DNA of 64,000 nucleotides, taken from positions 360,501-424,500 of the forward strand of contig CP054689.1 of assembly GCA_013348725.1 (NCBI GenBank). Direction: 5' to 3'. The notes under the pieces were generated by a model that was given only the letters and a program-made list of their open reading frames with translations, was not told the origin of the DNA and did no database searches. The stretch is from Ectothiorhodospiraceae bacterium 2226. GTDB lineage: Bacteria; Pseudomonadota; Gammaproteobacteria; GCA-013348725. Shown one piece after another: positions 588 to 27,820 of the stretch (position 1 is its first letter; each line of letters begins with the position of its first letter). The translations under genes were made by a program, and so were the position numbers.

Positions 588-3119
588 TCACGCGCTAGCC
601 GCGCGACGCCGGGTCGGCACGGATGGGGCCGCCGGGTCAGGCGGATCAGCCGGCGCATCGGGCGTGGCCTGCTTGGCGCCCGCCGCGCGGCGCAGGCGCA
701 ACGCATTCCCCACCACCAGCAGCGAGCTCGCGGTCATGCCGATGGCGGCCCCCCACGGCGGGATCAGGCCCGCCGCGGCGAGCGGCAGGGCCGTCACGTT
801 GTAGCCGGCCGCCCAGGCGAAATTCTGCACGATGATGCGCCGGGTGCGCTGCGCAATGCGCCTCGCCTCGAGCAGCGCCGAGAGGTCGCGTCCGAGCAGC
901 ACAAAATCGCTGCTCGTCTGCGCCAGTGCGGTCGCCTCGGCGGGCGACACCGACACGTCCGCCGCGGCAAGCGTGGGGGCGTCGTTCATCCCATCGCCCA
1001 CCATCAGCACGCGCGCGCCGCGGCGCTGTTCCGCGCGAATCCGGGCAAGCTTGTCCTGCGGCGTCATGCTCGCCTGCCAATCGGCGATGCCGACCTGCTC
1101 GGCCACGCGGCGCACGCTGCTCGGCGTGTCGCCGCTCAGGATTACGAAGCGGCGCACGCCCGCGGCACGAAGGCCGTGCAACAACGCGGGCACCTCGGGA
1201 CGCACCTCGTCGCGCACCGCGAACACCGCCTGCACGCCGGCCTCATCCGCAAGCACCAACGGCGTATCGCCGCGGGCGGCGCAGGCCTCCAGCGCGGCCT
1301 GGGCGGACGACGATAGGCGTGTCTGCCGCGCGATGTAGGGCGCGCTACCGAGCCACCAACGCCCGCCGTCGATCCGTGCGCTCACGCCCGCGCCGGGCGC
1401 GTGCGTCCAATCCCGCGCGGCGCTGGGGGTAATACATGCATGCCGAAAGGCGTCTGCCAAGGGATGACTGGATGTGGCCTCTAACGCCGCCGCATGACGG
1501 CGTGCCGTGGCGCCGTCCAAGCGCCCGAGGGGCCGCGTCTCCACCACCCGCGGGCGCCCGTGGGTGAGCGTGCCGGTCTTGTCGAACACCACCACCGTGC
1601 TGTGCGCGAGCGCCTCCAGCGCCCCCAGCCGCACCGGCAGGACGCCCGCCCGCGCGAACCGCCCCGCGCCCACCGCCAGCGCCACCGGCGCCGCCAGCGA
1701 GAAGGCGCACGGACAGGTGACGATCAACACCGCCAGGGTCGCGGGCAGCGCCACCGCCGGGTCGACCGACCACCAGTAAACCGCGGTCGCCGCCGCGACG
1801 AGCAACATGCCGGCGATGAACAGGCTTGCCGCGCGGCGCGCGAGGCGCCCTTCGCCGGACCGCGCGCGTAGCGCCTGGCGCAGCAGCGCATGGATCTCGC
1901 TGAGCACGGAGTCGCGCGTGGTACGCGTGACTTCCACCACCACGTCCTGGTCGCCGTTGCAGCTGCCGCCGATGACGCTCTCGCCCGGCCCGCGCAGCAC
2001 GGGCGTGGCCTCCCCGGTGACCAGGGCCTCATCGAAGCGACTCTGCCCCGCGACGATCACGCCGTCGGCCGGCACCACCTCGCCGGGGCGCACCCGCACG
2101 CGTTCCCCGGGGCGTAGCGCGGGCGCGGCGACTTCCGCCTCCGCGCCGTCCGGCTGCACGCGCCGCGCAGCGCGCGGCACCACGCGCGCGAGCCGATCCA
2201 CCTCGGCCGCGGCCGCGAGCCGCCCACGCAGTTCCAAGTGACGCGCAAGCAGCAGGAAGGCAATGAACATGGCGATGGAGTCGAAATACACCTCCTGATA
2301 CTGGTGCAGTGTCGCCCAGGCACTGCCCACAAATGCCAGTATCAGCGCGGTGGTCACCGGCACGTCCATACCCAGGCGCCGGTTGCGCAGGTCCTGCCAC
2401 GCGCCGTGGAAGAAATCCTGCGCCGGGTAGGCGAGCAAGGCGGCGGTAGCGAGTAACGCGGCGTAGCGGCCGGCCTCTACCCAGCCCGGCAGGTTACCCG
2501 CCGCGTCGGGCGCGCCCATCAGGTAGGTGGCGAGCGAGAACTTCATCACCAGCATGCTGAGCAGCCCCGCGAAGATGAGGCGCTCGGCGCTGCGGCGCTT
2601 GTGCTCCCGGGCAAGCTCGACGCGGTGCGCCGGGTCGTAGGGGTGGGCCACGTAGCCGAGGTCGGTGATGGCGCGCAGGATCTCGCTCAACTTGAGGCGC
2701 GCGGGGTCCCAGCGCACTTGCGCCCGGCCCGCGGTGTAGTCGAAATCCACCGCGAGGACCCCGGGCAAGCGGCGCAGGCGCTGCTCGTTGAGCCACAGGC
2801 AGGAGGCGCAGCGCACCTCTTCGAGCAACAGCTCCGCCTCACGCCATCCGGCGCCGGAGCGCACGAAGCTCGCCTGAACCTGGGGGTCGTCGTACAGCGC
2901 GAGGCGTGCGGTGAGCTCGCGCAACGCCGGACGCTCGGCGTTGGGCGCGCGCTGCTCGCGGTGATGGTAGTAGTCCTGCAGGCCCGCCTGCAGGATAGCG
3001 CGGCACACCTCGCGGCAGCCGGCGCAACAAAAGGCGCGCGGCGTCTCCCCCACCATCAACGTCGGCGCTCTGCCGCGCGCCAGCGCCGAACCGCAATGAA
3101 AACAGGTTTCGCTACGCAT
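588..3119 (-). CDS. ccoI: Copper-transporting P1B-type ATPase of the CcoI/FixI type
   Basis: This inner-membrane ATPase probably moves copper out of the cytoplasm to supply haem-copper oxidase assembly. The 843-residue protein starts with a Cys-rich metal-binding region (C6, C9, C31, C32, C35) typical of CcoI/FixI rather than CopA. An HMA-like domain with C104-A-S-C107 follows. The transport helix carries CPC at 469-471. TGE lies at 368-370, the phosphorylated DKTGT at 513-517, and GDGMNDAP further on. It is the last gene of the run and begins 8 bases after the dihaem cytochrome stop codon. Position behind ba3 oxidase genes fits a role in loading CuA/CuB. The C-terminal tail is Pro/Ala-rich and probably disordered. 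Export-type CopA is the alternative, less likely given the N-terminal Cys cluster. Confidence 0.9.
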   Translation of the reverse strand: MRSETCFHCGSALARGRAPTLMVGETPRAFCCAGCREVCRAILQAGLQDYYHHREQRAPNAERPALRELTARLALYDDPQVQASFVRSGAGWREAELLLEEVRCASCLWLNEQRLRRLPGVLAVDFDYTAGRAQVRWDPARLKLSEILRAITDLGYVAHPYDPAHRVELAREHKRRSAERLIFAGLLSMLVMKFSLATYLMGAPDAAGNLPGWVEAGRYAALLATAALLAYPAQDFFHGAWQDLRNRRLGMDVPVTTALILAFVGSAWATLHQYQEVYFDSIAMFIAFLLLARHLELRGRLAAAAEVDRLARVVPRAARRVQPDGAEAEVAAPALRPGERVRVRPGEVVPADGVIVAGQSRFDEALVTGEATPVLRGPGESVIGGSCNGDQDVVVEVTRTTRDSVLSEIHALLRQALRARSGEGRLARRAASLFIAGMLLVAAATAVYWWSVDPAVALPATLAVLIVTCPCAFSLAAPVALAVGAGRFARAGVLPVRLGALEALAHSTVVVFDKTGTLTHGRPRVVETRPLGRLDGATARRHAAALEATSSHPLADAFRHACITPSAARDWTHAPGAGVSARIDGGRWWLGSAPYIARQTRLSSSAQAALEACAARGDTPLVLADEAGVQAVFAVRDEVRPEVPALLHGLRAAGVRRFVILSGDTPSSVRRVAEQVGIADWQASMTPQDKLARIRAEQRRGARVLMVGDGMNDAPTLAAADVSVSPAEATALAQTSSDFVLLGRDLSALLEARRIAQRTRRIIVQNFAWAAGYNVTALPLAAAGLIPPWGAAIGMTASSLLVVGNALRLRRAAGAKQATPDAPADPPDPAAPSVPTRRRAASA

Positions 3120-3127
3120 GCCGAAGG

Positions 3128-3835
3128 TTATGGCTCCGTGCCGAGCCCCGCGTAGTAGCGCGCCAGCGCGTCGATCTCCTCGTCGGTTAGCTCGCTCGCG
3201 ATGACGCGCATCACGCCGTAGAGATCATTGGCGCGTGTTTCGTCGCGGTAGGCGCGCATGGTGGTCCGAAAGTACAGTTCCGGCTGTCCCGCGAGCGCGG
3301 CCTTGTCCACCGCACGACCCTGCCCCTGCGGCCCGTGGCAGACGGCGCAGGCGGGTATGAAGCGGGCGGCATCGCCGCGGCGCACCAACTGCAGGGCGAT
3401 GTCGTCCGGCGGCTCTGCGGTCTGCGGTGGCGGCAGAGGCTGCGCGGCGTACCACATAGCCATGTCCGCCATGTCCTGGATCTCCATCACCTCGGTCAAG
3501 GCGGTCATGATGGGGTGCACGCGGTTGCCGAGGTGATAATCGTGCAACTGCTTGAAGGTGTACTCGGGCAACTGGCCCGCCAAACTCGGAAAGTTGGGGC
3601 TGGGGCTCACGCCGGTGGCACCATGGCAGGACGCGCAGTCCTGGGCGAGTCGCTCACCGCGCTGTGCGTCGCCGCCGCGCACCAGCCGGCGCGTCTCGAC
3701 GGTCCACGCAACGCGTGTCGAGGGCTCGGCCTGCGGGTCCTCCAACGCCCCCTCCAGCCCCACCGGAGGCTGCGCCCCGGCGAGCGCCGTCAGCGAGAGT
3801 GCGATAGCCGCGATCAGCAGTAACTTGGCGCGCAT
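3128..3835 (-). CDS. Dihaem cytochrome c (cytochrome c4-like)
   Basis: This periplasmic electron carrier probably delivers electrons to the adjacent oxidase. The start is placed at ATG 3835, where a signal peptide begins (MRAKLLLIAAIALSLTALAG); the longer open frame upstream overlaps subunit I and has no coding character. The 235-residue protein has two haem c sites, C67-A-S-C-H71 and C163-A-V-C-H167, in two similar class I domains, as in cytochrome c4. It begins two bases after the oxidase subunit I stop codon, so the two are probably translated together. Its exact partner, flavocytochrome c or another donor, is inferred only from position. Confidence 0.85.
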   Translation of the reverse strand: MRAKLLLIAAIALSLTALAGAQPPVGLEGALEDPQAEPSTRVAWTVETRRLVRGGDAQRGERLAQDCASCHGATGVSPSPNFPSLAGQLPEYTFKQLHDYHLGNRVHPIMTALTEVMEIQDMADMAMWYAAQPLPPPQTAEPPDDIALQLVRRGDAARFIPACAVCHGPQGQGRAVDKAALAGQPELYFRTTMRAYRDETRANDLYGVMRVIASELTDEEIDALARYYAGLGTEP

Positions 3836-3837
3836 CG

Positions 3838-5457
3838 TCAAATCCCCCAGGGCGGCGAATCGTAGGTGTTCAGAATGAAGAACTGGGCGATCGGATAGCC
3901 GAATGCCGCGATCATGTAGAACACCAGTATCCAGTTCCACAACGTGAGGCCGTTGAGCACCCGCGGCACGCGCAGCACCGGATGCAACGGCTGCGCGTAG
4001 TGCAATTCGCGATCGGCCTCCACGCCGAAGGTGTAATGGCTGCGCAACAGGTTGTAGACGAACAGCAGCGCCGAGATCATCAGAATCAATCCACCGAACA
4101 CCATCACGACCTGATACGGATACCACTGCGCGGCTTGCGGGATCTCGTACACGATGGAGGAGATACGCCGCGGTTGGGCCATGAGGCCGACGATGTGCCA
4201 CGGCGTGGTGGTCACCACCATGCCGATGAACCACAGCCACAACTGCGTCAGCACCATCCGGTTCGAATGCAGCGGCCGGCCGGTCAGCTTGGGCCACATG
4301 TAGTAGGCGCCGGCCATGTACAGAATCACCGTGGTGCCGCCGAAGATGAGGTGGAAGTGCGCTGTCACCCAGGCGGTGTTATGCACCATGGCGTTCATCG
4401 CGTAGCTCGAATTGATGAAGCCGCCGAATCCTCCCAGGATCAAAAACAGGAAGGCGAAGACCGACGCGAGCACCACCGGGTTGCTGCGATCGAGCGACAG
4501 TATCCAGCCGAACAGACCGCGCCCCCCGCGCAACCGTCCCGCGATTTCCATGGAGGCCATAATGGTGAAGCCGGTGATCAATGTCGGCACCATCACGCCG
4601 AAGGTGCTGATGGTATGAAAAAGTTTGAAGCCGGCGCTGTGCTCCGGATCCATGAACAGGTGGTGGAACCCGACCGGAAGACTGAACACCAGCAGCATGA
4701 TGAACGCGACGCGCCCGAGTTCGTCGCTAAACAAGCGCCCGCCCGCCGCGCGCGGCAGAAAGGCGTAGAGCACGATGTAGGCCGGGATGAGCCAGAAGTA
4801 GACGATGGCGTGCAACGTCCAAGAGAACAGCGTGCGCGCGAGCCCTACATCGATGGTGTCGGTCCAGCCCAGCGACCAGGGAATCAGCTGAAACAGCATC
4901 TCGGCACCGACGCCGACACTGGTCCACAGCCACAGCGCCGCATTGACGCTCATGGCGAACATGGCCAGCGGCACAGGTTGGCCGGGATTGCCCCGTTTCC
5001 ACTGCACCATCATGGTGAGCATGATCACCGCCCATGCCCACGACCCCACCACCAGTAGCGTGGCGCCGATGTAATAGGCCGAGTGAGCCTGGTGCGGCGG
5101 ATAGAAGGTATAGAGCACCGAGGCCTGGCCCAGCACCAATGGAACGGCGGCGATCACGGTGCCGGCAAGCGCGACCCAGAAACCAAGCCACGCGAGCGGC
5201 TTGTTCCATAAGGGGCGTTGCAGGCTGGTCGTGGCGATGTAGTAGCCGAAGCCCATGATGAAAAAGGTGGTGAGCACATAGCCCATCAGGGTCCCGTGGG
5301 TGCTGATCGCCCCGAAATAGATCGCCTGCGACTGCACCTGAGGTGCGATGCCGCTCAGCGCGAGCACTTGATAGAAACCCAAGATCGCAGCCACGGCGAA
5401 TGCCGCGAAGGCCACCCACATATGGGTCAGGCTGAGTCGTTCCGCCTTGTCGAACAT
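3838..5457 (-). CDS. ba3-type (family B) cytochrome c oxidase subunit I
   Basis: This is the catalytic membrane subunit of a B-family haem-copper oxidase that reduces O2 to water. In the 539 residues the low-spin haem histidine is in STHGTLMGY (H54). The CuB/tyrosine motif is H216-A-I-V-Y220, equivalent to the GHPIVY motif of Thermus ba3. The CuB pair is H265-H266, and HFH in helix X supplies the remaining haem ligands. The short loops, and the HAIVYFWLIPAY motif in place of the A-family HPEVY, mark the B family. Subunit II and a small subunit lie upstream and a cytochrome c lies downstream. B-family enzymes generally have high oxygen affinity, which would suit microoxic sulfide oxidation (inference). 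Confidence 0.92.
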   Translation of the reverse strand: MFDKAERLSLTHMWVAFAAFAVAAILGFYQVLALSGIAPQVQSQAIYFGAISTHGTLMGYVLTTFFIMGFGYYIATTSLQRPLWNKPLAWLGFWVALAGTVIAAVPLVLGQASVLYTFYPPHQAHSAYYIGATLLVVGSWAWAVIMLTMMVQWKRGNPGQPVPLAMFAMSVNAALWLWTSVGVGAEMLFQLIPWSLGWTDTIDVGLARTLFSWTLHAIVYFWLIPAYIVLYAFLPRAAGGRLFSDELGRVAFIMLLVFSLPVGFHHLFMDPEHSAGFKLFHTISTFGVMVPTLITGFTIMASMEIAGRLRGGRGLFGWILSLDRSNPVVLASVFAFLFLILGGFGGFINSSYAMNAMVHNTAWVTAHFHLIFGGTTVILYMAGAYYMWPKLTGRPLHSNRMVLTQLWLWFIGMVVTTTPWHIVGLMAQPRRISSIVYEIPQAAQWYPYQVVMVFGGLILMISALLFVYNLLRSHYTFGVEADRELHYAQPLHPVLRVPRVLNGLTLWNWILVFYMIAAFGYPIAQFFILNTYDSPPWGI

Positions 5458-5497
5458 CGCATTCTCCCCTCCGGCCGGGCGGCGCCCGGGCCGCGCC

Positions 5498-6037
5498 TCA
5501 CTGACCCCGGTCGCCCGGCGGGTTCGGCCCCGCCTGCACCTGATCCGGCTGCCACTGGTCCTGCGGCACCACCACCAGACGGCTCCACATGTAGTCGTGC
5601 CCCAAACCGCAGTACTCGTTGCACAGGAACGGATAGGTGCCGGGGCGCGGGAACTCCGTAGTGACCTCCGAAACGAAGCCCGGCACGACCATGGTGTTCA
5701 TGTTGGTGCCGGCCACGTGCACGCCGTGCAGCACGTCGGGCGTCGCCCAGCGGAAGGTCACCGGCGTGTTGGCCGGCACTTCCACCCGCTGGGGATAGAA
5801 CGCATAGCGCGCGGCAACCATGGTCACCACCACGCGCCCATCCTCGGTGATCCGAGGCCCGAGCCGGTCCTCGGCGAATTCCTCGGACAGATGCAGCGAG
5901 GCCGAGTCGATGGTCTCGACGTTACTGGGCGGATGAATGTTGGCGCTGACGGCGGTAAACAGCACGACCGCCGAGGCGAATGCCACCAGAATCAGCGAGA
6001 CGTAGACCCAGGCCTTCTCGCGCGGATCGATATGCAT
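5498..6037 (-). CDS. ba3-type cytochrome c oxidase subunit II (CuA)
   Basis: This membrane-anchored subunit accepts electrons from cytochrome c. It has one N-terminal membrane helix (about residues 11-31) and a periplasmic cupredoxin domain. All CuA ligands are visible: H104 in DVLHGV, then C139, E141, C143, H147 and M150 in CNEYCGLGHDYM. At 179 residues with a single helix it matches B-family subunit II rather than the longer two-helix A-family form. It lies between the 49-residue small subunit (9-base gap) and subunit I (40-base gap). Confidence 0.92.
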   Translation of the reverse strand: MHIDPREKAWVYVSLILVAFASAVVLFTAVSANIHPPSNVETIDSASLHLSEEFAEDRLGPRITEDGRVVVTMVAARYAFYPQRVEVPANTPVTFRWATPDVLHGVHVAGTNMNTMVVPGFVSEVTTEFPRPGTYPFLCNEYCGLGHDYMWSRLVVVPQDQWQPDQVQAGPNPPGDRGQ

Positions 6038-6046
6038 GGCATCACC

Positions 6047-6196
6047 TCAGCTGACCGGCCCGCGCGCCAGGAACACACCAAAGTAAAAATACAGCCAGGC
6101 CAGCGTGAAGGCCCCTGCAAACAGCAGCATAATCACCAGGGTGCCCTTGGGCGCATCCGCGATTCGGCGTTTGTCTTCTTCGCTAAGCTCGTCCAT
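6047..6196 (-). CDS. Small single-helix subunit of the ba3 oxidase
   Basis: This 49-residue protein has a charged N-terminus (MDELSEEDKRR) and one membrane helix (about 20-42). It resembles the short IIa-type subunit encoded in B-family oxidase operons. The start at 6196 is chosen because GGAGGAG lies just upstream at normal spacing. An in-frame ATG at 6208 has no ribosome-binding site and would lie within 6 bases of the fccB stop. Such subunits stabilise the oxidase in Thermus. Function here is inferred from size and position only. Confidence 0.7.
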   Translation of the reverse strand: MDELSEEDKRRIADAPKGTLVIMLLFAGAFTLAWLYFYFGVFLARGPVS

Positions 6197-6213
6197 GAGC
6201 TCCTCCATCAGTT

Positions 6214-7497
6214 TCAGCCGAACGTGTCGGCGACGATGTTCTCGTACCAACTGCGCCAGAACACCGATTCGAGACGCCGCTGCGCCGGTGTGGCATCCAT
6301 CGGTGAGACGCCGCCGGCCCCTTCGACCGCGGTGATACCCTTATCCGTCAGTTCGTAGACGGCGGCGACGGAGATACCGTAGGTCGGACCCACCAAGCTG
6401 AAACAGGCGTTCATCAGCGACGGCAGGGTCGGTTCGTGCTCGGCCAGAATATCCAGCACCGCATGGGCGCATACCTTGGCCTGGGTGTTGGCCGAAACGC
6501 CCGACTTGGGCATCTCGCCCGCAATGCAGGAGTCGCCGATCACGTGGATGCCCGCCACGCGGGTGGACTCGAAGGTGCGTTGGTCGACCGGGCAGAAGCC
6601 CGTCTCGTCTGTCAGGCCCAAGGTGTGCGCCAGCATACCGGCCTGCTGCGGGGGGATAACATTCGCGACATCCGCCTGCTGGGCGCCGGCCGCGGTAACG
6701 ATGGTGCGTGTGTTCACCTCGATTCGCTCCACCGTCCCGCCTTGCGAGCCCGGCACCCACTCGATCATTCCCCGCGGGTAGAGCTCGTCCCAGCCCTGCA
6801 TGAACAACTCCTGCTTGGTGAAGCTGTCCTTGGGGTCGAGTATCAGCACCTTCCCACGCCGGTTGTAGGTGGCAAGATAGTTTGCAACCAGGCTCGCGCG
6901 CTCATACGGCCCCGGCGGGCACCGGAACGGGTTGTCGGGCGCCACCATCACGAACAGACCGCCGTCGCGCATCTCCTGGAGTTGACGGCGCAGGAGCTGG
7001 GTCTGCGGCCCCGCCTTCCAGGCATGCGGCATCACCTGGGCGGCCGCCGCATCGTAGCCTTCGAGGGCGTCCCAACGAAAATCGATTCCGGGCGCGAGGA
7101 TCAAACGGTCGTAAGGATGTTCGGCGCCGGTTTGGGTTACGACGCGTCGGCGCTCGGCGTCCACGTTCACCACCGAGTCGTGATGCACCGCGATGCCGAG
7201 CTCCTCCAGCGCGCGAAAATCGTGCACCAGGGTGTCGAAAGCGCGGTTGCCGCCGATGTAGTCATTGCTCATGGGGCACGTGACGTACTGGCGATCGCGT
7301 TCGATGAGCGACACTGAAATCTCTGGATCGAGCAATTTCAGGTAACGCGCCGCGGCCGCGCCGCCGAAGCCGCCACCGACGACCACGACCTGCGCCGAGG
7401 TGCGCGCTCGGGCGGCAGGCAGCCACCCACCGAATGCACCCACCAGACCCGCCGCCCCAGCAGCTTTGATGAACTCCCTGCGCGTGATGTCGATCAT
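6214..7497 (-). CDS. fccB: Flavocytochrome c sulfide dehydrogenase, flavoprotein subunit
   Basis: This periplasmic FAD protein oxidises sulfide to sulfur and passes electrons to its cytochrome subunit. The 427 residues open with a Tat-type signal (TRREFIK followed by a hydrophobic stretch). A Rossmann motif follows (VVVGGGFGGAAAA, 37-50). C74 in YVTCPMSN sits at the position of the cysteine that binds FAD covalently in Allochromatium FccB. C193 (RCPPGPYER) and C302 (GFCPVD) match the pair that forms the redox-active disulfide. The C-terminal FCSD flavin-binding region is complete. fccA is 21 bases upstream and the oxidase genes follow, so electrons could pass from sulfide to O2 through products of one cluster. 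Confidence 0.9.
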   Translation of the reverse strand: MIDITRREFIKAAGAAGLVGAFGGWLPAARARTSAQVVVVGGGFGGAAAARYLKLLDPEISVSLIERDRQYVTCPMSNDYIGGNRAFDTLVHDFRALEELGIAVHHDSVVNVDAERRRVVTQTGAEHPYDRLILAPGIDFRWDALEGYDAAAAQVMPHAWKAGPQTQLLRRQLQEMRDGGLFVMVAPDNPFRCPPGPYERASLVANYLATYNRRGKVLILDPKDSFTKQELFMQGWDELYPRGMIEWVPGSQGGTVERIEVNTRTIVTAAGAQQADVANVIPPQQAGMLAHTLGLTDETGFCPVDQRTFESTRVAGIHVIGDSCIAGEMPKSGVSANTQAKVCAHAVLDILAEHEPTLPSLMNACFSLVGPTYGISVAAVYELTDKGITAVEGAGGVSPMDATPAQRRLESVFWRSWYENIVADTFG

Positions 7498-7518
7498 GGC
7501 GCTCTCCGGGCGGAACGG

Positions 7519-7839
7519 CTAGCGCCGCTCCTGGGCTAGGAAGTAGCGGGCCATCAGCACGAAATCTTCATCCCGATAGCCGCGCGCGATGCGGTTCATG
7601 ATGGTGCCGGGCCGCGCGCCGCTCTTGAAGTCCTGCATGGCGCGCACGAAGACCTCCTCCGAAAGACCCTGCAGGGGCGGAATAGCCCCGGGACTGTAGC
7701 CGCCGGGGCCATGACAGCTATTGCAGGACTGGCTGAGTATGGCCGCGCGCCGCACCTCGTCCTCTTCTGCTGCGGCAAACGGGCCACTGAACAGCAGCAC
7801 CAACGTCAATAAAGTAGTAGCACACGATACTTTCTTCAT
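7519..7839 (-). CDS. fccA: Flavocytochrome c, cytochrome subunit
   Basis: This is a small periplasmic monohaem cytochrome c, the electron-accepting partner of FccB. The start at ATG 7839 begins a clear signal peptide (MKKVSCATTLLTLVLLFSG) and has a purine-rich site (CGAAGGG) ahead of it; the longer open frame is a read-back into the previous gene. The mature part has one haem site, CNSCH, and a likely methionine ligand in the GTIMNRIARGY region. At 106 residues it resembles the monohaem form of FccA known from green sulfur bacteria, not the dihaem subunit of Allochromatium. Confidence 0.85.
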   Translation of the reverse strand: MKKVSCATTLLTLVLLFSGPFAAAEEDEVRRAAILSQSCNSCHGPGGYSPGAIPPLQGLSEEVFVRAMQDFKSGARPGTIMNRIARGYRDEDFVLMARYFLAQERR

Positions 7840-7873
7840 CCCTTCGTCCTCACATTGAGGTTGCCCTTCCCGC

Positions 7874-9976
7874 CTAGCGGCGCGGCCGGAACCGATAGGT
7901 CTCCTTGCGCAGTTCCGACATGCCGTAGCCCTCGGCACAGGCCACCGCCTGCAGCACCGCGTCGCGCTCCAGGGTCACGAAGCCGCCGCTGGCGATCTCC
8001 GTGCCGCGCGTGCAGCTCGGAAGGTTCCCGTCGGTGGTGTAACGGATGGTGGCGCCCTCGGTGCGCGTGGTGAGGGTCACGTGCTGCGGCTCGCGGAAGG
8101 TGCCGCCACGCACGCTGAACGCCGGGCGTGCGGCGAGGTAGGGCGAAGACTGGAGGATGGTGCCGCCGTCGCCGACAACAATAAAGGTGCCATGAGCGAA
8201 CAGCGCGCCGAAAAGCCCATTGTCCGTGGGTATCGGGTGGCGGCGCCACTCGATGCCGTCGGATGAACTGTAGAGCAACGACGAATCGAAATAGCCGCTG
8301 CCCACGGCCAGAAAGGTGCCGTGGCTGTGGGTGACGCCGAGCAACCAGCCTTCCTCGAAGGAACTGTCCCGTTGCCAGTTGATACCGTCCTCGGAGACGG
8401 CCACGCCACCCGAGTACTGATCTTCCCTTCCCACCGCCACGAAGCGTCCGTCGGCATAGGTCACATCGTAGAACTCAAATTCGAAGGTGCCGGTGTCTCG
8501 AGGCGTCCAGCTGACGCCGTCGGTGGAGGTCACCACCGTGTTCCACCGCTCCGCCACCGCCACGAAGCGCCCCCCGCCGTAGGCGACTCCCCGCAGGTCT
8601 TCGCTCACGCCCGACGCGCGTGCGCGCCAGGTGCGCCCGTCGCGCGAGGTGATGATCTTCCCTTCCGCGCCCACCGCGACGTACAAGCCGTTGCCGTAGG
8701 TCACCCCGTACAGGCTTTGACTCGTGTCCGAGCGGCGCAGCGCCCAGCCGATGCCGTTGGGTGACGTGAGCACGGTGCCATTCTGGCCCACCGCCACGAA
8801 CCGACGCCCGGCGCTCACCACGTCGAACAGCGAGTTGCGGGTCCCGGCGTTGCGCTTCCGCCAGTCGACACCGTTCTCGGACGTGAGAATGGTGCCGCGT
8901 GACCCGACCGCCACTATTCGGTTGCCCTCGCGCGCAAGACCGTGCAGGTGTTGCTGGGTGACGCTGCTCGAGGCCAGCTGCCAAGGGCGTGCGTCGGCAG
9001 AGGAGACGATCGTGCCATACGCGCCCACCGCCGCATAACGACCGTCTCCGGCGGCGACATGGTACAGCCGCATGTCCGTGCCCGACCTGACACGCTGCCA
9101 CTCGCTGCCATCGCTGGAGGTGAGCAGGACGCCATTCTCGCCGACGGCCAGGAAGCGGTTGCCGTCATGGGTTATCCGGCGCAGCTGACTATCCACCGGC
9201 GAACGCACCGGGTTCCACTGCTGCGCGTCGCTCGAGCGCAGAATCGTGCCGTCCTCCCCCACCGCGACGTAGACGTTGTTCCCGAAGGCGACATCCCGCA
9301 ACGCGGCCGTCACGCCGCTGTTTGTGTGGTGCCATTCGGCGGCGTCGGGAGACGTGAGGACAGCGCCTCCGCCACCGACCGCCACGAAGCGCTCCCCATC
9401 GTAGGTAACCCCGAACAGCGTGGGCGAGCCGGCGCCCGGCGCGCCGACGGGAACGTCCATCGCGCTCCAGGTCGTGCCGTCGGCGGACGTCACGATGCGG
9501 TGACCGACCGCCACAAACGTGCCCGCACCGTAGGCGAGCCCGTAGGACTCGCCTAGCTCGTACCAGACCTGGCTCCAGTTAATGCCGTCGGTCGACACGA
9601 ACAGGTAATCCACAAACCAGCCCACGCTCGCCAGGTAAATGCCGTCGGCATAGATCACGTCCAGACACTGAGCACCACCCGGCCAGTTGAACGAGAGCTG
9701 CTCGGACGTCCACTCACGCCCGTCCGTGGAGGTAAGCGCAGTGCGCCCGGAGCCTAGCGCGAGAAAGCGCCCCTCCGCATGCACCAGGCATTGCAGTGTG
9801 TCGCCCTGCGGCAGCGGATTGCGCCAGTGCCACTCATCCAGCGGCGAGGTCCCCTGGGCCAAGGCCGGTCCGCCCCCGCCAAGCAGCAGGAGCGTCGCCA
9901 GCAAGAGAACCACGGTCTTGAGGGCGTCGCCGAGACCGCGTTCGGCTTGCTGCCTGGCTTGTTGTGCTTTGTTCAT
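7874..9976 (-). CDS. Secreted Asp-box (BNR-like) propeller protein with C-terminal chitobiase-like domain, copy 1
   Basis: This exported protein of about 700 residues has unknown function. The start at 9976 has GGAGGG at good spacing; ATGs further upstream lack a site. After a signal peptide ending near GPALAQ it contains 13 repeats of the Asp-box form S-x-D/N-G-x-x-W (for example TSTDGREW, TSPNGIGW, SSSDGIEW) at about 40-residue spacing, each followed by a strand like FVAVG. Such repeats fold as beta-propellers. The last 80 residues (ARPAFSVRGG onward, with IRYTTDGNLPS) resemble the chitobiase/hexosaminidase C-terminal domain. No catalytic residues are recognisable. It is followed by fccA after 34 bases and preceded by a paralogue after 26. 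Confidence 0.7.
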   Translation of the reverse strand: MNKAQQARQQAERGLGDALKTVVLLLATLLLLGGGGPALAQGTSPLDEWHWRNPLPQGDTLQCLVHAEGRFLALGSGRTALTSTDGREWTSEQLSFNWPGGAQCLDVIYADGIYLASVGWFVDYLFVSTDGINWSQVWYELGESYGLAYGAGTFVAVGHRIVTSADGTTWSAMDVPVGAPGAGSPTLFGVTYDGERFVAVGGGGAVLTSPDAAEWHHTNSGVTAALRDVAFGNNVYVAVGEDGTILRSSDAQQWNPVRSPVDSQLRRITHDGNRFLAVGENGVLLTSSDGSEWQRVRSGTDMRLYHVAAGDGRYAAVGAYGTIVSSADARPWQLASSSVTQQHLHGLAREGNRIVAVGSRGTILTSENGVDWRKRNAGTRNSLFDVVSAGRRFVAVGQNGTVLTSPNGIGWALRRSDTSQSLYGVTYGNGLYVAVGAEGKIITSRDGRTWRARASGVSEDLRGVAYGGGRFVAVAERWNTVVTSTDGVSWTPRDTGTFEFEFYDVTYADGRFVAVGREDQYSGGVAVSEDGINWQRDSSFEEGWLLGVTHSHGTFLAVGSGYFDSSLLYSSSDGIEWRRHPIPTDNGLFGALFAHGTFIVVGDGGTILQSSPYLAARPAFSVRGGTFREPQHVTLTTRTEGATIRYTTDGNLPSCTRGTEIASGGFVTLERDAVLQAVACAEGYGMSELRKETYRFRPRR
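7891..8091. repeat. Direct repeat copy A (3' end of propeller gene 1)
   Basis: These 201 bases read identical to 10017-10217 by direct comparison, and similarity continues with a few mismatches to about 8174. The block encodes the chitobiase-like C-terminal domain. Identity over this length, third codon positions included, contrasts with clear divergence in the middle of the two genes. Confidence 0.9.
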
Positions 9977-10002
9977 TTCGCCCTCCATGGCGTATGGCAT
10001 CT

Positions 10003-12126
10003 TCAACGTCCTCGAAACCGATAGGTCTCCTTGCGCAGTTCCGACATGCCGTAGCCCTCGGCACAGGCCACCGCCTGCAGCACCGCGTCGCGCTCCAGGG
10101 TCACGAAGCCGCCGCTGGCGATCTCCGTGCCGCGCGTGCAGCTCGGAAGGTTCCCGTCGGTGGTGTAACGGATGGTGGCGCCCTCGGTGCGCGTGGTGAG
10201 GGTCACGTGCTGCGGCTGCCGGAAGGTGCCGCCACGCACGCTGAATGCGGGGCGCGCGGCGAGGTAGGGCGAAGACTGGAGGATGGTGCCGCCCGAGCCC
10301 ACCGCGATGAAGGTGCCGTGGGCGAACAGGACATCATTAAGAGCATTGTCCACGCGCACGGCGTGACGCTGCCATTCCGTGCCATCCGATGAGCTGTAGA
10401 TCAGTGCGTCTTCGAAGAAGCCGGTGCCTACGGCGACGTAGATCCCGTGGCTGTGCGTCACGCCGCGCAACGCCCCATCCACAGTTGGAAGGACCGAGGC
10501 TTGCTGCCAATTCAGACCATCCTCCGACACCGCCACTTGGCCGAAAATGCTCTCGTCACCACCCACCGCAACGAAGCGCCCGTCCCCGTAGGTCACGTTG
10601 TAGAGTTCGATGCCTTCGACGCCCACATCGACCGGTGTCCAACGGCGGCCGTCGGTGGAGGTCAACACCGTCCTCCCCCCCGCCGTCGCGACGAAGCGTC
10701 CCCCGCCGAAGGCAACGCCCCATAGGCGTCCGCTGTGCCCCGAGTCGTGCGAGCTCCAGCGTCGACCGTCGCGGGAGGTGATGACGCGTCCCCCGTTCCC
10801 AACCGCTACATACACCCCATTGCCATAAGCCACGCCGTAGAGGTCCTGGCTCGTACCGGAACGCCGCGGTGCCCAGCCGATACCGTTGGGCGAGGTAAGC
10901 ACGGTACCCGCGTCCCCCACCGCCACGACCAGGCGTCCCGCGCGAATCACGTCGTGAAGCGCGTGCAACGTCCCCGAATTGCGCTTGCGCCACGCCGTCC
11001 CGTCCTCGGAAGTGAGGATGGTGCCGCGCGAGCCGACCGCCACGAGGCGACCGTCCGTCCGCACGAGGCCGAACAGCGCTCTGTTGGTGAAGGCCCGGGA
11101 GGCCAGTTGCCAACGCCGGGCATCGCTGGAGTAGAGGATCGTGCCGTACGCGCCCACCGTGAGGTAGCGTCCATCGCCGGCGACCACTTGATACAAGGTT
11201 ACGTCCGTGCCCGAGGAGACGCGCCGCCACGCGTGGCCGTCAGGCGAGGTGAGTACGGTGCCGTTGACTCCTATCGCCACAAATCCGTGACCGTCGTGAG
11301 CGACGTGACGCAACTGAACATCCACGGGCGACCGGACGCGAGTCCATTGTTGCGCGTCATGCGAACGCAGGATGGTGCCATTATTCCCCACAGCCACGTA
11401 AGCATTGCTGCCGAACGCGACGGCATGCAAGATTTCACTGACCCCGCTGTCCCGGTAGGTCCAGTCTATGGCATCCCGAGAAGTTAAGATGGCGCCGCCT
11501 CGGCCCACAGCGACGAACCGATCTCCGCCGAAGGTCGCGCCGTTGAGCAGGGCGTCGCCCTGGGACTGCGGGATCGACGGCCCGCCCGGCGGAAGCTCGT
11601 TCACGGCCCAGCTTGTGCCGTCCTGAGACGTCGCTATAGCTCGTCGCCCCACCGCCACGAATAAGCCCGCACCGAACGTCAGCCCGTGAAAGTCAGTGGG
11701 TAGTTCAGGACCTCCGGCGGTCCACTGCAAACCATCCGTAGAGACGTACGGGCGACCGTCCGAGAAGGCATCGGAGAACAGAGTGACGTAGCGGCCGTCG
11801 CCGTAGGCAAGATCATGACAGGTCGCCCCCGCCGCCCACCCGCCAACGAGTTCCTCCTCGGACCAGTCGCGCGCGTCGCTAGAAGTGAGCGCGGTGTGTG
11901 CTGTACCCAAGGCCAGGAACCGGCCCTCCGCGTGCAGCAGGCATTCCAAGGTATTCCCCTGCGGCAGCGGATTGCGCCAGTGCCATTCATCCAGCGGCGA
12001 GGACCCCTGGGCCAAGGCCGGTCCGCCACCGCCAAACAGCAGGAGCGTTGCCAGCAGAACGATCACCGTCTTCGCGGTAGTGCCGCGGCCGGCGCTCGCG
12101 GCGTACCGATGGTCTTCGTTATGCAT
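10003..12126 (-). CDS. Secreted Asp-box (BNR-like) propeller protein with C-terminal chitobiase-like domain, copy 2
   Basis: This is the tandem paralogue of the preceding entry, about 707 residues. The start at 12126 has the same GGAGGG ribosome-binding arrangement as copy 1. A signal peptide (VLLATLLLFGGGGPALAQ) precedes 13 Asp-box repeats (for example TSSDARDW, TSQDGTSW, SSSDGTEW) and the same C-terminal domain. The two proteins align repeat for repeat but differ at many positions in the propeller, so they may bind different ligands. It is probably the first gene of the minus-strand run that continues into fccAB and the oxidase, although a promoter inside the run cannot be excluded. Function is unknown. 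Confidence 0.7.
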   Translation of the reverse strand: MHNEDHRYAASAGRGTTAKTVIVLLATLLLFGGGGPALAQGSSPLDEWHWRNPLPQGNTLECLLHAEGRFLALGTAHTALTSSDARDWSEEELVGGWAAGATCHDLAYGDGRYVTLFSDAFSDGRPYVSTDGLQWTAGGPELPTDFHGLTFGAGLFVAVGRRAIATSQDGTSWAVNELPPGGPSIPQSQGDALLNGATFGGDRFVAVGRGGAILTSRDAIDWTYRDSGVSEILHAVAFGSNAYVAVGNNGTILRSHDAQQWTRVRSPVDVQLRHVAHDGHGFVAIGVNGTVLTSPDGHAWRRVSSGTDVTLYQVVAGDGRYLTVGAYGTILYSSDARRWQLASRAFTNRALFGLVRTDGRLVAVGSRGTILTSEDGTAWRKRNSGTLHALHDVIRAGRLVVAVGDAGTVLTSPNGIGWAPRRSGTSQDLYGVAYGNGVYVAVGNGGRVITSRDGRRWSSHDSGHSGRLWGVAFGGGRFVATAGGRTVLTSTDGRRWTPVDVGVEGIELYNVTYGDGRFVAVGGDESIFGQVAVSEDGLNWQQASVLPTVDGALRGVTHSHGIYVAVGTGFFEDALIYSSSDGTEWQRHAVRVDNALNDVLFAHGTFIAVGSGGTILQSSPYLAARPAFSVRGGTFRQPQHVTLTTRTEGATIRYTTDGNLPSCTRGTEIASGGFVTLERDAVLQAVACAEGYGMSELRKETYRFRGR
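10017..10217. repeat. Direct repeat copy B (3' end of propeller gene 2)
   Basis: This is the partner of the block at 7891-8091, identical over 201 bases at an offset of 2126. Signal-peptide-proximal DNA (about 9836-9905 against 11980-12060) is also very similar, so both ends of the genes are better conserved than their centres. Confidence 0.9.
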
Positions 12127-12448
12127 GTCGCCCTCCATGGCGTGCAGCGCGCATCAACGCGATCCGCTCCTTGGAAGCGAGAGGGTTGAGACGTGCGCCG
12201 CGCAAGACGGAACGAGGAAGGAACCGGGGGCGTACGGCGAGCCGCTCGCGTGCAGGGCACACGCTTTCAGAGGCGCAGTCGGCTCGTTGCGTCAGCGCTC
12301 GCCCAAACCGTCCCCCAGTGACGGCCGCGCGCGCGCTGCTGTCCCCCCTCCCCATGACCGCCCTCCGTGGCAGCTAGGAAAATCCCGAACAGCGATTAGA
12401 TTGGACCCTAGCATCTACTCGGAGGCTGTCAACGTGGAGCGGCGCCCG
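12127..12448. other. Intergenic region without recognisable gene
   Basis: About 320 bases lie between the start of propeller copy 2 and the end of lactate permease, both on the minus strand. Open frames here are short and lack ribosome-binding sites. The region should hold the promoter for the propeller/fcc/oxidase run, but no convincing -35/-10 pair stands out. Confidence 0.5.
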
Positions 12449-14128
12449 TCAGTTCGTGACTAGCCGGCTCAGCACCCAGCCGAGCGCGCCGAGCGAGAGC
12501 GCGTACAGTGCGGCGGGCAACAGATTACGACGCAGCACCAGCCCCTCGCGACCCGCGAGCCCCACCGCGGCGCAGGCGGCCACGATATTGAACACCGCGA
12601 TCATGTTGCCCACGGCGGCGCCGGTATTCTGCAAGCCGAGTATCAGCACGCCCGACACCCCGATGCGCTCGGCGGCCTCGAACTGGAACGCGGCGAACAT
12701 GACGTTCGACACCGTGGCCGAGCCCGACACGAAGGAGCCGAGGGCGCCGACGAACGGCGCCGCCACCGGCCACGCCGCGCCCACGGCGTCCGCGGCGGCG
12801 CCCGACAAGGTGAGCATCATGCCCTCCACCTCACGCGCGTTGACGTCGGACTGGATCATGATCTGCACCATCGCCACGGCGAACAGCAGCGCGAGCGTGG
12901 CGCCGCCGAGTTGCCGCAGCGTATTCCCCCAGGCCTGCGCCACCGCCCGCGCCGGCATGCGATAGAACAACGCCGCCAGCAACGCCACCACCATGAAGGG
13001 CACGATGCCGGGCAGGTACAGGTACGGCAGGCTGTAATCGATGCCGCTGCCAAGGATGTCGTTCCACTGCAGCGTGCGCGCCGCCAGCCAATCGCGCAGG
13101 CCGAGCGCAGGCAGGCGCGTCACAAGCAGCGCCAGCGCGATCACCGCATAGGGCAGCCACGCGCGCCACAGCGGCATCACGGGTTCGGTGTCGCGCGCCA
13201 CCTGCTCCGCGCCCACGCTACCCGACCACTCCCCCGGCCAACGATCACGCGGCGGGAAATCCCACACCGTGCGCGGCGTGAGGAAACCCCGCCGCGCCGC
13301 AAGGAGCACCAGCGGCAGCCCGATGAAGGCCCCCATCAACGCGGGAAACTCCGGCCCCAGCAGCGCGGCGGTGGCCAGATACGGCAGCGTAAAGGCGAGC
13401 CCTGCGAACAGCGCGAACGGCGCCGCCTGCAAGCCGTGGCGTAGCCCTCGCAGACCGCGCTCTCCGGGAGGGCCGAACCACGCGGTGAGCATGCAGATCG
13501 CCAGCAGCGGCACGAAGGTACCCACCACCGCGTGCGGCAAGGCGCTCCACAAGGTGACCTCGCGCAGAAAGTCCAGAAGCGCGAGTTCGGACGTGCCGGC
13601 CGCATCGTGGGCCACGACGGCCAAACCGCCGAGCACCGGCGTCCCCACCGCGCCGAAGCTCACCGCGGTGGAGTTCATGATCAGCGCGATCATCACCGCC
13701 GCAAGCGCCGGGAAACCGAGCACCACCAACAGCGGCGCCGCGAGCGCCGCCGGGGTGCCGAACCCGGCCGCGCCCTCGATGAACGAGCCGAACATCCAGC
13801 CGACGATGATCGCCTGCACACGACGGTCGGGCGAGATACCGTCGAAACCGTGACTGATGGCACGCATCGCGCCGCTGCCGCGCAGCGTGTTCAGCACCAG
13901 CACGGCCCCGAACACGATCAGCAGGATGTTGAGCGAAGAGAGAAAGCCGTACAGCGTGGCCGCCAGCAGGCGCATGGGTTCGACCGCCCACACGCTCCAG
14001 GCGATGGCCAGCGCAATCGCCCAACCGAGCGGCATCACACGCCGCGCGGGCCACGCGAAGGCGGCCATCATGAGGGCGACAAACGCGATCGGCAGCGCGG
14101 CCAACAGCGCGCCGTAGGACGGCCCCAT
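12449..14128 (-). CDS. lctP: L-lactate permease family transporter
   Basis: This inner-membrane symporter takes up lactate or a related 2-hydroxy acid with protons. The 559 residues form about 13-14 hydrophobic segments. Family-typical stretches are visible, including the [18 protein letters not shown] motif near residue 115-135 and a C-terminal [12 protein letters not shown] segment. Length matches the LctP/LldP family. It starts 6 bases after a 2-hydroxyacid dehydrogenase gene, so uptake and oxidation or reduction of a hydroxy acid are probably co-expressed. Glycolate is an alternative substrate. Confidence 0.9.
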
Positions 14129-24945: not shown

Positions 24946-25553
24946 GTTATCCGGCCGCGGCCGGTCTGGGCCTGCTGGCGGCGCTGGCGCTGCCGCCGCT
25001 GCGCGCGGGCCTCGAAGGCATCATGTGGACCCACATGCTGGTGCAGATTCCCCTGCTGATCGTGGCCGGCGCCCTGCTCGGTAGCGCGCTGCCGGCGCGC
25101 TGGCGCGCGGCGCTCGCGCCTTGGGACCGCGCGGGCGTCGCGGGGCTGCTGCTTGCCCTGTTCGCCCTCGCCTGGTGGATGCTGCCCCGGCACCTCGATG
25201 CCGCGCTCGAATCGGCGGCGGTGGACGCCGCCAAGTTTGCCAGCCTCGCGCTGCTGGTCGGGCTGCCCCTGCGCCTGTCCTGGCCACGCGTGCCCTTCGT
25301 GCTGCGCGGCGTGGTGGCGAGCAAGCTGGTCGCCATGCTGGCGGTGATGGGTTGGCTGTACCTGGTGGCCCCGCTGCGGGTATGTAACAACTACCTGGTC
25401 AGCGACCAGGAGACCCTGGGGCGCCTGCTGCTATTGGCCGCGCTCGGCCTGGGGCTGGCCCTCGCGCTGCGGGCCTTCACGCTCGACGGGCGCACCTCAC
25501 AGGCCCACCAGCACGCTGTAACCCAGCCCCAGGGCGCCGCACACGCCGATTAG
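24942..25553 (+). CDS. Membrane protein, orf1 of the sNOR set
   Basis: This 203-residue hydrophobic protein has about five or six membrane segments (for example THMLVQIPLLIVAGALLGS near residue 30). The GTG start overlaps the senC stop by four bases. The C-terminus is hydrophilic with several His (QAHQHAVTQ). It occupies the place of orf1 in norSY-senC-orf1 clusters, whose role is not established. Metal delivery or assembly is a guess from context. Its last 57 bases overlap chrA on the opposite strand. Confidence 0.7.
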   Translation: MSYPAAAGLGLLAALALPPLRAGLEGIMWTHMLVQIPLLIVAGALLGSALPARWRAALAPWDRAGVAGLLLALFALAWWMLPRHLDAALESAAVDAAKFASLALLVGLPLRLSWPRVPFVLRGVVASKLVAMLAVMGWLYLVAPLRVCNNYLVSDQETLGRLLLLAALGLGLALALRAFTLDGRTSQAHQHAVTQPQGAAHAD

Positions 25554-26867
25554 CGGAATAATGCCGAGCTTGAAGCGGAACAAGCCCACGAAGGCCGCCA
25601 CCGCCACCAGCAGCGAGAACACATCGAAGCGCCCGTCCAGCCCCTGCGGCCACAACACGTGGTAGCCGAAGAACACGGCGAGATTGAAGATCACCCCCAC
25701 CACGGCGGCGGTGATGCCGGTCAGCGGGGCGGTGAAGCTGATATTGCCGTGGGTGGATTCCACCAGCGGACCGCCGCCCAGGATGAACAGGAACGAGGGC
25801 AGGAAGGTGAAGAAGGTCGCCACCGTGGCCGCCAAGGCGCCGGCCAGGAACAGCTGATCCGGGCCGAAGATCGCTTGGCTCCACGCCCCGATGAAGCCCA
25901 CGATGGCCACGATCATGATCAGCGGCCCCGGCGTGGTCTCGCCGAGCGCCAGGCCGTCCATCATCTGGTGCGGCGTGACCCACTGGTAGTACTCCACGCC
26001 GCCCTGGTACACGTAGGGCAGTACCGCGTAGGCCCCACCGAATGTGAGCAGCGCCGCCTTGGTGAAGAACCAGCCGACCTGCGTCAGCATCCCCTGCCAC
26101 CCAAACAGCGCGGTGAGCACCGCCATCGCCAACAGCCAGAGCCCCAACCCCACGACGAGGATGCGTACCAGGCGCCGCCAGGTGAAACGCGCGTGCGCCG
26201 GCGTCGGCGTGTGGTCGTCGAGGATCGCCGGCCCGTAGCGTTGGGCGCCGCCGCCCGCGTGCCCCCCGCCCAAGGCGAACGTGGCCGGCGCAAGACGTCC
26301 GCCGATGAACCCGATCAGCGCCGCCACACCCACGATCAGCGGGAACGGTATACCGAAGGCGAACATCGCGACAAAGGCCGCCGCGGCTATGCCCCATAAG
26401 GGGACGTTGGCCAGCGCGCGCGAGCCGATGCGGTAGGCGGCAAACAGCACGATGGCCACCACCGCGGGCTTGATGCCGTACAAAATGCCCGCCACGGCCG
26501 GTACATCGCCCCAGCGCAGGTAGATCCAGCTCAGCACGATCAGTAGCACCAGCGAAGGCAGCACGAACAACACCCCGGCCAAGATCGCGCCCCAGGTGCG
26601 GTGCAGCAACCAGCCGATGTAGGTGGCGAGCTGCTGGGCCTCGGGTCCGGGCAGCAGCATGCAATAGTTGAGCGCGTGCAAGAAGCGCCGCTCCGAGATC
26701 CAGCGCCGCTGCTCCACCAGATCGTAATGCATGATCGAGATCTGGCCCGCCGGCCCGCCGAAGCTGATGAAGCCCAGGCGCAACCAGTACCAGAAAGCCT
26801 CACGCCAACTCACTCGGCGCACCGGCGCGTCAGCCGCGTCACCGGCAAGCGCGTTGTCGCTGCTCAT
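25497..26867 (-). CDS. chrA: Chromate transporter ChrA
   Basis: This inner-membrane protein of the CHR superfamily exports chromate. The 456 residues comprise two homologous halves. The N-half carries GFISFGGPAGQISIMHYDLV and LPGPEAQQLATYIGW (about 32-85). The C-half carries the equivalent LTFGGAYAVLPYVYQ and LGETTPGPLIMIVAIVGF stretches. The start overlaps the chrB stop (ATGA-type, 4 bases), so the pair is one operon. Sulfate/chromate specificity cannot be read from sequence. Confidence 0.9.
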   Translation of the reverse strand: MSSDNALAGDAADAPVRRVSWREAFWYWLRLGFISFGGPAGQISIMHYDLVEQRRWISERRFLHALNYCMLLPGPEAQQLATYIGWLLHRTWGAILAGVLFVLPSLVLLIVLSWIYLRWGDVPAVAGILYGIKPAVVAIVLFAAYRIGSRALANVPLWGIAAAAFVAMFAFGIPFPLIVGVAALIGFIGGRLAPATFALGGGHAGGGAQRYGPAILDDHTPTPAHARFTWRRLVRILVVGLGLWLLAMAVLTALFGWQGMLTQVGWFFTKAALLTFGGAYAVLPYVYQGGVEYYQWVTPHQMMDGLALGETTPGPLIMIVAIVGFIGAWSQAIFGPDQLFLAGALAATVATFFTFLPSFLFILGGGPLVESTHGNISFTAPLTGITAAVVGVIFNLAVFFGYHVLWPQGLDGRFDVFSLLVAVAAFVGLFRFKLGIIPLIGVCGALGLGYSVLVGL

Positions 26868-27820
26868 GCATCGTTCTCCTCTTGCCTTGCCAGGGCCGCC
26901 GCCAAGCCGCCCGCCAAGGCATCAAAAATCACCAGCGCCTCGCCCAGCAGCGCGTCGTCGTCCGCATGACGCTCACGCGCGCCACGCAGCATCGCCTCCA
27001 GACCGGGCGCCTCGGGCGATGGCACGCCGCCGACGTCGAGGTAGTGCACCAGCTGCGCCAGGCGCGCCAGCACCGGCTCGCGCTCCAGCCCAAAGCTCGC
27101 CGCCAGCACCTCGAAAGTGACGCGGTTACCCACGTGGGTGAACTCGGCACCGTCGAAATCGAAGCCGACGGCACCGGCCGCTAAGTCGGCCGGTGCCGCG
27201 AGCCAAAGGAAACGCGCCTCGGGATCTATGTGGCGCCGAATGAGCCACGCGCTCGCCAGGCGATCGATCCACGGTCGACGGCGTGTCGCCCACAGGCGTG
27301 CGCGATAGTCCGCGCGCCGACGCGCTTCGATGGCGCCGCCCAGCGCGCGAGGCTCCCCCGCGGCGCCCTCAACAGCGGCCTCCAGCCGCGCCAGCAGTGC
27401 CCGCGCCCGCGCGCGCTCGGCGCCAGGGAAGTAGTCGATCGCCTCGATGCGCGCGAGCTCACGCGCCCGCTTGGCCAGCTCACGCGCCGCGGCGCCCGGC
27501 GATTTGGCCTCCAGCTCCGCCGCGCGCGCAGTCGTTTGGCGGCTCCACGCGGCATAGTCGTTTGCGCGATCGAACAGCTGGCGGAAGGCCCCAGCCTGCG
27601 CCGCGTCGGCCTGCACATCCAACACCTGGGCGCCGCCGCCGGCCGCCGTCACTTCAGCCGCCTGTTCAACGAGAAACTCCCGCAGTCCCGCTTTCTGAGG
27701 CAGGAGGTACACGCCGTCGCGCAGCACCGCGCAGCCGCGCGCGCGTAGCCCGCGCCAGACGCGCATGCGCGCCGTGGCCTGCGCCGACGGGAGTGCGAGG
27801 ATCAAAAGGTGCCAGTCCAT
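26864..27820 (-). CDS. chrB: Chromate resistance protein ChrB
   Basis: This 318-residue protein has the usual ChrB layout. The N-terminal domain (MDWHLLILALPS, RVWRGLRARGCAVLRDGVYLLP) acts as a chromate-responsive regulator in characterised homologues. The C-terminal domain carries RRRPWIDRLASAWLIRRHIDPEARFLW and the VTFEVLAASFGL stretch. It precedes chrA with overlapping start and stop. The divergent pentahaem lipoprotein gene begins 137 bases away, so a ChrB-controlled promoter region may be shared, but no operator was recognised. Confidence 0.9.
   Translation of the reverse strand: MDWHLLILALPSAQATARMRVWRGLRARGCAVLRDGVYLLPQKAGLREFLVEQAAEVTAAGGGAQVLDVQADAAQAGAFRQLFDRANDYAAWSRQTTARAAELEAKSPGAAARELAKRARELARIEAIDYFPGAERARARALLARLEAAVEGAAGEPRALGGAIEARRRADYRARLWATRRRPWIDRLASAWLIRRHIDPEARFLWLAAPADLAAGAVGFDFDGAEFTHVGNRVTFEVLAASFGLEREPVLARLAQLVHYLDVGGVPSPEAPGLEAMLRGARERHADDDALLGEALVIFDALAGGLAAALARQEENDA

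Follow-up and report, generated by a model that had tools for sequence, protein, structure and literature searches.

A probable pair of duplicated, secreted binding proteins with short Asp-box propellers beside the flavocytochrome c genes of Ectothiorhodospiraceae bacterium 2226

Do proteins encoded immediately ahead of the genes of a flavocytochrome c sulfide dehydrogenase serve this enzyme, or is their position an accident of the chromosome? This question is raised by a stretch of 64,000 nucleotides (hereafter the window; contig CP054689.1, positions 360,501 to 424,500) from the gammaproteobacterium Ectothiorhodospiraceae bacterium 2226, in which two adjacent genes, here called A and B, precede fccA and fccB (Table 1). 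A preliminary description of this DNA had presented their products as exported proteins devoid of recognisable catalytic residues, each carrying 13 Asp-box repeats and a C-terminal domain of carbohydrate-enzyme type, and had proposed that they bind a polysaccharide or a mineral or sulfur surface, or that they act in assembly like Ycf48; it mentioned no described link between this architecture and flavocytochrome c.

A and B share the same architecture and are 67% identical overall when aligned. Their open reading frames share four bases if the first start codons are used. The likelier starts, judged by eye, are the ATG at 12126 for A, which is also the end coordinate given in the preliminary description, and the ATG at 9976 for B, each located directly after a GGAGGG. 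Around these codons, the leader sequences of the two genes are nearly identical by eye, and both proteins begin with what looks, by the same criterion, like a signal peptide. The motif SxD[GA]xxW or SxNGxxW occurs exactly 13 times in A and 13 times in B, usually at a spacing of 39 residues; in 2,000 shuffled versions of each sequence, the motifs averaged 0.07–0.10 and never numbered more than 2. It corresponds to the 7-residue short Asp-box, given by Quistgaard and Thirup in 2009 as S/t-X-D/n-X-X-X-W/f/y (PMC2716378, excerpt). No canonical 8-residue Asp-box was found in either protein with the pattern SxDxGxxW, which is looser than SxDxGxTW.

The tails of both proteins match CHB_HEX_C_1 (PF13290) well above the gathering cut-off of 22 bits (41.9 bits for A and 41.5 for B). 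Pfam detects no glycosidase domain in A or B up to E = 1, and a motif scan found no RIP or FRIP motif in A, B or their two paralogues, C and D. The FRIP motif is a feature of GH33 sialidases; A and B, with neither RIP nor FRIP, were not assigned to this family. Membership of the Sortilin/Vps10 family (PF15902, no match in the whole genome) and of the BamI family of Bacteroidota (NCBIfam NF053688, only 39.8 and 34.4 bits for a cut-off of 370) was likewise rejected. The number of repeats and the nature of the C-terminal domain were thus correctly recognised in the preliminary description, the repeats being of the short form, and its proposals of export, of a binding role and of a lack of recognisable catalytic residues agree with these data.

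Table 1. Features of the propeller genes, of their neighbours and of their paralogues. Positions are those of the window unless a genome coordinate (G000, contig C1) is given.
Feature	Position	Strand	Description and basis
Propeller protein A	10003-12138	-	711 aa; leader/signal peptide, tandem s-Asp-box propellers, CHB_HEX_C_1 tail (ORF, motif, Pfam, AlphaFold2)
Putative first seven-bladed propeller of A	11089-11949	-	Residues 64-350, seven s-Asp-boxes at 86-337; from motifs, model and structure comparison
Putative second seven-bladed propeller of A	10264-11088	-	Residues 351-625, six boxes; from model and structure comparison
CHB_HEX_C_1 tail of A	10039-10236	-	Residues 635-700; Pfam
Gene conversion tract	10016-10217	-	202 nt within the tail of A that match B exactly; A/B nucleotide comparison
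Propeller protein B	7874-10006	-	710 aa; architecture as in A (ORF, motif, Pfam, alignment)
CHB_HEX_C_1 tail of B	7913-8110	-	Residues 633-698; Pfam
fccA	7519-7839	-	Monohaem cytochrome c subunit; neighbour (Pfam, position)
fccB	6214-7497	-	Flavoprotein subunit of flavocytochrome c sulfide dehydrogenase; neighbour; FCSD_central and FCSD-flav_bind (Pfam)
Small ORF between fccB and cox2	6208..6047	-	Read by eye
cox2	5498-6037	-	Oxidase module co-directional with fccAB
cox1	3838-5457	-	Oxidase module co-directional with fccAB
Cytochrome c	3128-4297	-	Oxidase module co-directional with fccAB
copA	588-3119	-	Copper-type P-type ATPase; after cytochrome c, co-directional with fccAB
Paralogue C	G000:C1:1606605-1608365		37%; without CHB_HEX_C_1 tail
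Paralogue D	C1:347192-349036		33%; without CHB_HEX_C_1 tail

The stop codon of B (7874) is separated from the ATG of fccA (7839) by 34 nt, as first described, and the two genes lie on the same strand, which suggests that A and B are co-transcribed with fccAB. FccA displays one CxxCH by inspection, its match to the cytochrome c family of Pfam being sub-threshold (17.6 bits vs 27). Furthermore, all the genes of the row A-B-fccA-fccB-cox2-cox1-cyc-copA are read in one direction. A scan of positions 5400-12700 gave no promoter-like site and terminators at the level of shuffled sequences; it has no bearing on the existence of an operon.

Such an organisation favours the view that A and B serve sulfide oxidation as co-regulated partners. 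They would be extracellular proteins, expressed from a message common with fccAB and the oxidase genes, that keep elemental sulfur, polysulfide or a mineral surface close to the cell. It also has a precedent, since a gene encoding a BNR-domain protein lies beside fccAB in Thioalkalivibrio thiocyanoxidans and is co-induced with it on thiocyanate (logFC of 3.0 for the BNR gene and 5.8-6.9 for the fcc genes; PMC5744179, excerpt).

However, the comparison with other genomes argues against such a partnership. Asp-box propellers were sought with two profile HMMs (E <= 1e-3, filters off), both of which recover A and B as a control, and with a motif count at 102 other fccB loci (101 in other genomes and the second fccB of this genome), which were taken roughly by falling similarity from among the stronger listed matches, and for which the upstream DNA had a median length of 8.1 kb and reached at least 3 kb in 88 cases. 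None of the 102 carries a propeller near fccB. Conversely, none of 78 loci encoding relatives of A and B carries FccA, FccB, Cox1 or Cox2 beside the propeller gene, in flanks of up to 8 kb that are often shorter at contig ends. At the scale of whole genomes, FCSD is found in 114 of the 369 genomes of the class and propellers (E <= 1e-10) in at least 74; both occur together in 24 genomes for 22.9 expected (p = 0.78), or in 23 for 22.4 expected without the genome studied here, the propeller counts being lower bounds because three candidates per genome were scored, so that even paralogue D was missed. The 369 genomes are those of the class; none of the genomes compared is of the same family or order, all 55 others in one set sharing the class only.

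The fcc genes also keep company with the oxidase genes where there is no propeller. Close relatives of cox1 are present in 15 of the 369 genomes, and two loci from two genomes of one other genus (L241 and L242), the only ones among the 102 with a Cox1 match above 60%, display the order cox2-cox1-cyc-copA-fccA-fccB with no propeller; the fcc-oxidase association therefore recurs independently of A and B. In addition, paralogues C and D are located away from the fcc genes. The A/B-fcc arrangement is thus absent from all other fcc loci examined, and a functional link to flavocytochrome c is not supported; of the two observations that the preliminary description had named as refuting it, the first, a lack of co-occurrence in other genomes, corresponds to what was found here. 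As the neighbourhood is not found in the related bacteria checked, it looks accidental. A role in sulfide oxidation is accordingly judged unlikely, though it is kept among the readings because of the short gap and the Thioalkalivibrio precedent.

In a more elaborate version, fcc clusters would have acquired extracellular Asp-box propellers on separate occasions, here and in Thioalkalivibrio, for handling sulfur on the outside of the cell: A and B would retain the polysulfide or elemental sulfur that FccAB produces and would be encoded on one message with a complete electron chain from sulfide to oxygen. This appears very unlikely. The BNR protein of Thioalkalivibrio may be related to A and B, or it may be short and resemble Ycf48; if it is of the same kind as A and B, the link with sulfur would be reopened. 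A motif search for TatA and for Tat signals revealed no clear case of a thiocyanate-type tatA-fcc cluster among the 102 fcc loci; a TatA-like protein is encoded a few kb from fccB at one of them (L298). In the literature searched for flavocytochrome c sulfide dehydrogenase together with a propeller, the propeller found was thiocyanate dehydrogenase.

The second fccB of the genome (G000:C1:2470811-2472082, locus L186) encodes a protein 52% identical to that of the window and has its own fccA, with no propeller or cox genes nearby.

The preliminary description had called for a structure prediction. An AlphaFold2 model of protein A alone, based on an alignment of 31 sequences, has a mean pLDDT of 82.7, with values mostly over 90 in the propeller region (about residues 50-625) and mostly under 50 in the leader and the tail, so that the fold of the tail is taken from Pfam. 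In the modelled blades, the Asp-box lies between strands 3 and 4, as in the blade with strands at 403-408 and 413-416, a box at 416-422 and the following strand at 423-425. Among the matches listed, single seven-bladed propellers align with A over about 275 residues spread over 46-626 (Z about 28-32), the designed seven-bladed propeller 7bie aligns to residues 351-625 alone, and the alignment with a homologue of AIP1, a double propeller, covers 540 residues at 6.2 A. The best Foldseek matches among those listed include tandem WD40 proteins and GH74 enzymes (6p2m, E 8e-18; 5jwz).

Taken with the motifs, the model suggests that A consists of two seven-bladed propellers in tandem, i.e. 14 blades, with the N-terminal strand WHWRNP (residues 52-56) probably completing the last blade of the second propeller. 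A single ring of 14 blades had also been considered, as 13 boxes and a closing strand would make 14 blades; the structure comparison favours two rings of seven. The 14 blades of a WD40-type WRAP protein are likewise arranged as two seven-bladed rings (PMC9218822, excerpt), and no report of a 14-bladed beta-propeller was found in a literature search.

Among natural proteins of solved structure, the sequence search found relatives only in the Ycf48 family (Ycf48/HCF136; 5ojp and 2xbg, E 1e-13). This proximity, together with the adjacent genes for redox enzymes, is what speaks for A and B being periplasmic, Ycf48-like assembly factors whose propeller would dock on an assembling subunit of flavocytochrome c or of the neighbouring cytochrome oxidase. 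However, neither protein matches the Ycf48 model of NCBIfam (PRK13684, cut-off of 326 bits) at E <= 0.01, paralogue C reaching 36.3 bits. Ycf48, a photosystem II assembly protein, has one propeller of seven blades (PMC10403576, excerpt), whereas A is modelled with two propellers totalling 14 blades and both A and B carry a chitobiase-type tail. Moreover, no propeller is found near fccB at the 101 loci of other genomes, and the paralogues of A and B bear tags resembling those of surface sorting. The Ycf48-type assembly idea put forward earlier is therefore not supported as membership, and a role of this kind in the assembly of redox enzymes seems highly doubtful.

A and B belong to a widespread bacterial family of short-Asp-box tandem propellers with W-x-W-R-N-P-like N-termini, 78 loci of which were found in Verrucomicrobia/Opitutae, Thermus, Chloroflexi, Bacteroidota, Spirochaetes and others. 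These proteins resemble A and B over the propeller region of about 600 residues, with 27-48% identity over the best segments, and the 34 relatives that were trimmed carry 8-17 short Asp-boxes each; they differ from A and B by various other C-terminal domains. Indeed, a BLAST search with the tail (E <= 0.01) found an A/B-like tail on the propeller gene at none of the 78 loci. Another CHB_HEX_C query gave one weak tail match, located away from the propeller gene, in L149, and a YTTDG motif occurs in a long frame in L081. A propeller and a CHB_HEX_C domain also share a frame in G021 and G169, two genomes from a single genus. Neither genome has an FCSD match, and in both the gene sits among unrelated genes that look, by eye, like housekeeping genes. 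A search of plasmids with B gave 31 records, mostly from Thermus, all under 60% identity.

More largely, A and B share with Asp-box beta-propellers the fold, as seen in the model of A, and an S/T-x-D/N-...-W hairpin that recurs from blade to blade between strands 3 and 4, and differ from them by motifs that are all of the short form without glycine; this form was named from five-bladed propellers and carbohydrate-binding modules (PMC2716378, excerpt). With GH74 xyloglucanases, they share uninterrupted Asp-box blades arranged, in the model of A, as two seven-bladed propellers; they differ from these enzymes by their minimal loops and short Asp-boxes, without any GH74 match or recognised catalytic feature. 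That A and B could be glycoside hydrolases of this type is the least likely of all the readings: the chitobiase-type tail and the Foldseek matches to GH74 structures point that way, but besides the lack of any Pfam glycosidase up to E = 1, the F510_1955 glycosylhydrolase model of NCBIfam gives only 61.9 and 51.8 bits for a cut-off of 175, and the middle blades are minimal, with 39 residues and a two-residue loop 2-3, which is where the known glycosidases of the Asp-box type have catalytic residues (PMC2716378, excerpt).

The comparison of A with B informs about their history. The pair results from a tandem duplication, and the various parts of the genes have diverged very unequally. The blades display a dS of 1.1-1.5 with a dN of about 0.3, and are therefore old and constrained; purifying selection acts on them. 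Residues 24-64 show a dS of 0.40 and a dN of 0.06, and the tail a dS of only 0.12 and a dN of 0.03. The tail has been homogenised by gene conversion (Table 1), which probably occurred near the leader as well.

Within blades 4-12, A and B differ at 29 of the 42 positions of loops 2-3 and 4-1 vs 67 of the 246 positions of the strands and core (Fisher p = 5e-7); relative to the bottom loops and the variable positions of the Asp-boxes (24/54), the contrast is weak (p = 0.023). The classes and faces of the loops were derived from the sequence register and the literature, and the comparison involves one pair of sequences. In this register, loops 2-3 and 4-1 would form the top face, which is called the functional face of Asp-box propellers (PMC2716378, excerpt). 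As the faces are set by register and as loops change faster than the rest in most proteins, the divergence of the loops is taken as a hint that the ligands of A and B may differ.

The paralogues provide clues about location. C lies 1.2 Mb and D about 19 kb from A and B, both in other gene contexts. A search of the whole genome for the C-terminal tag JDVT-CTERM (E <= 0.01, cut-off of 27 bits) gave five matches, four of them over the cut-off: an S8 protease (39.5 bits), two CHB_HEX_C-domain proteins (36.8 and 33.7), D (28.0) and, under the cut-off, C (22.1). With hmmscan on whole proteins, D (22.2) and C (16.4) are both under the cut-off. The genome also encodes MrtJ (125 bits, cut-off of 75) and the type II secretion protein GspD (593 bits, cut-off of 351). 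Myxococcus proteins with the related MYXO-CTERM tag become anchored at the cell surface through type II secretion (PMC11980579, excerpt). The genome thus resembles the MrtJ/JDVT-CTERM sorting system (PMC11980579, excerpt) by its mrtJ beside the gene of a JDVT-CTERM S8 protease and by the similar ends of C and D; A and B differ in that neither bears the tag. A surface or extracellular location of A and B is for this reason proposed by analogy with C and D, and, as both domain types of the tagged set are present in A and B and the tag is not, they may be released or attached in another way.

On the whole, the tags of the paralogues, MrtJ, GspD and the unconserved link to fcc lead us to read A and B, with reasonable though far from full confidence, as two secreted members of a broad family, a pair produced by duplication that has a binding role and no enzymatic one and that lies near the fcc genes by chance or is at most co-regulated with them. 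Their leader would direct export through Sec, and type II secretion, the likely route of the JDVT-CTERM-like C and D, would then take them across the outer membrane. Together, the propellers of each protein would form a rigid scaffold whose top-face loops may bind a polysaccharide, a surface or an extracellular protein, A and B presumably having different targets, and the chitobiase-type Ig-like tail could provide a second contact or act as a spacer. Their position at the head of the fcc-oxidase row would be accidental, or would at most give co-expression in lithotrophic growth, and flavocytochrome c would not need them.

A single adjacency is a poor guide to function, and in the sample examined these propellers do not travel with fcc. 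The pair makes a large group of exported propellers easier to study: as tagged (C and D) and untagged (A and B) members occur in one genome, and as the divergence between A and B is strongest at a small number of loop positions, a direct comparison of location and of ligand is possible.

Several other genes deserve mention. The JDVT-CTERM S8 protease gene is followed by mrtJ (G000:C1:2346626-2348589; L229:6627-8590), which is the published two-gene sorting neighbourhood. Two adjacent genes (G000:C1:1322267-1326571; L037:7268-11572) encode JDVT-CTERM proteins with CHB_HEX_C, one of which has a long Asn/Asp/Gly-rich repeat. In the window itself, a chromate transporter adjoins ChrB-like genes (25497-27820, reverse strand), and positions 27958-30087 (forward strand) encode a Calx-beta domain protein with a match to outer-membrane cytochromes of the MtrC/MtrF type.
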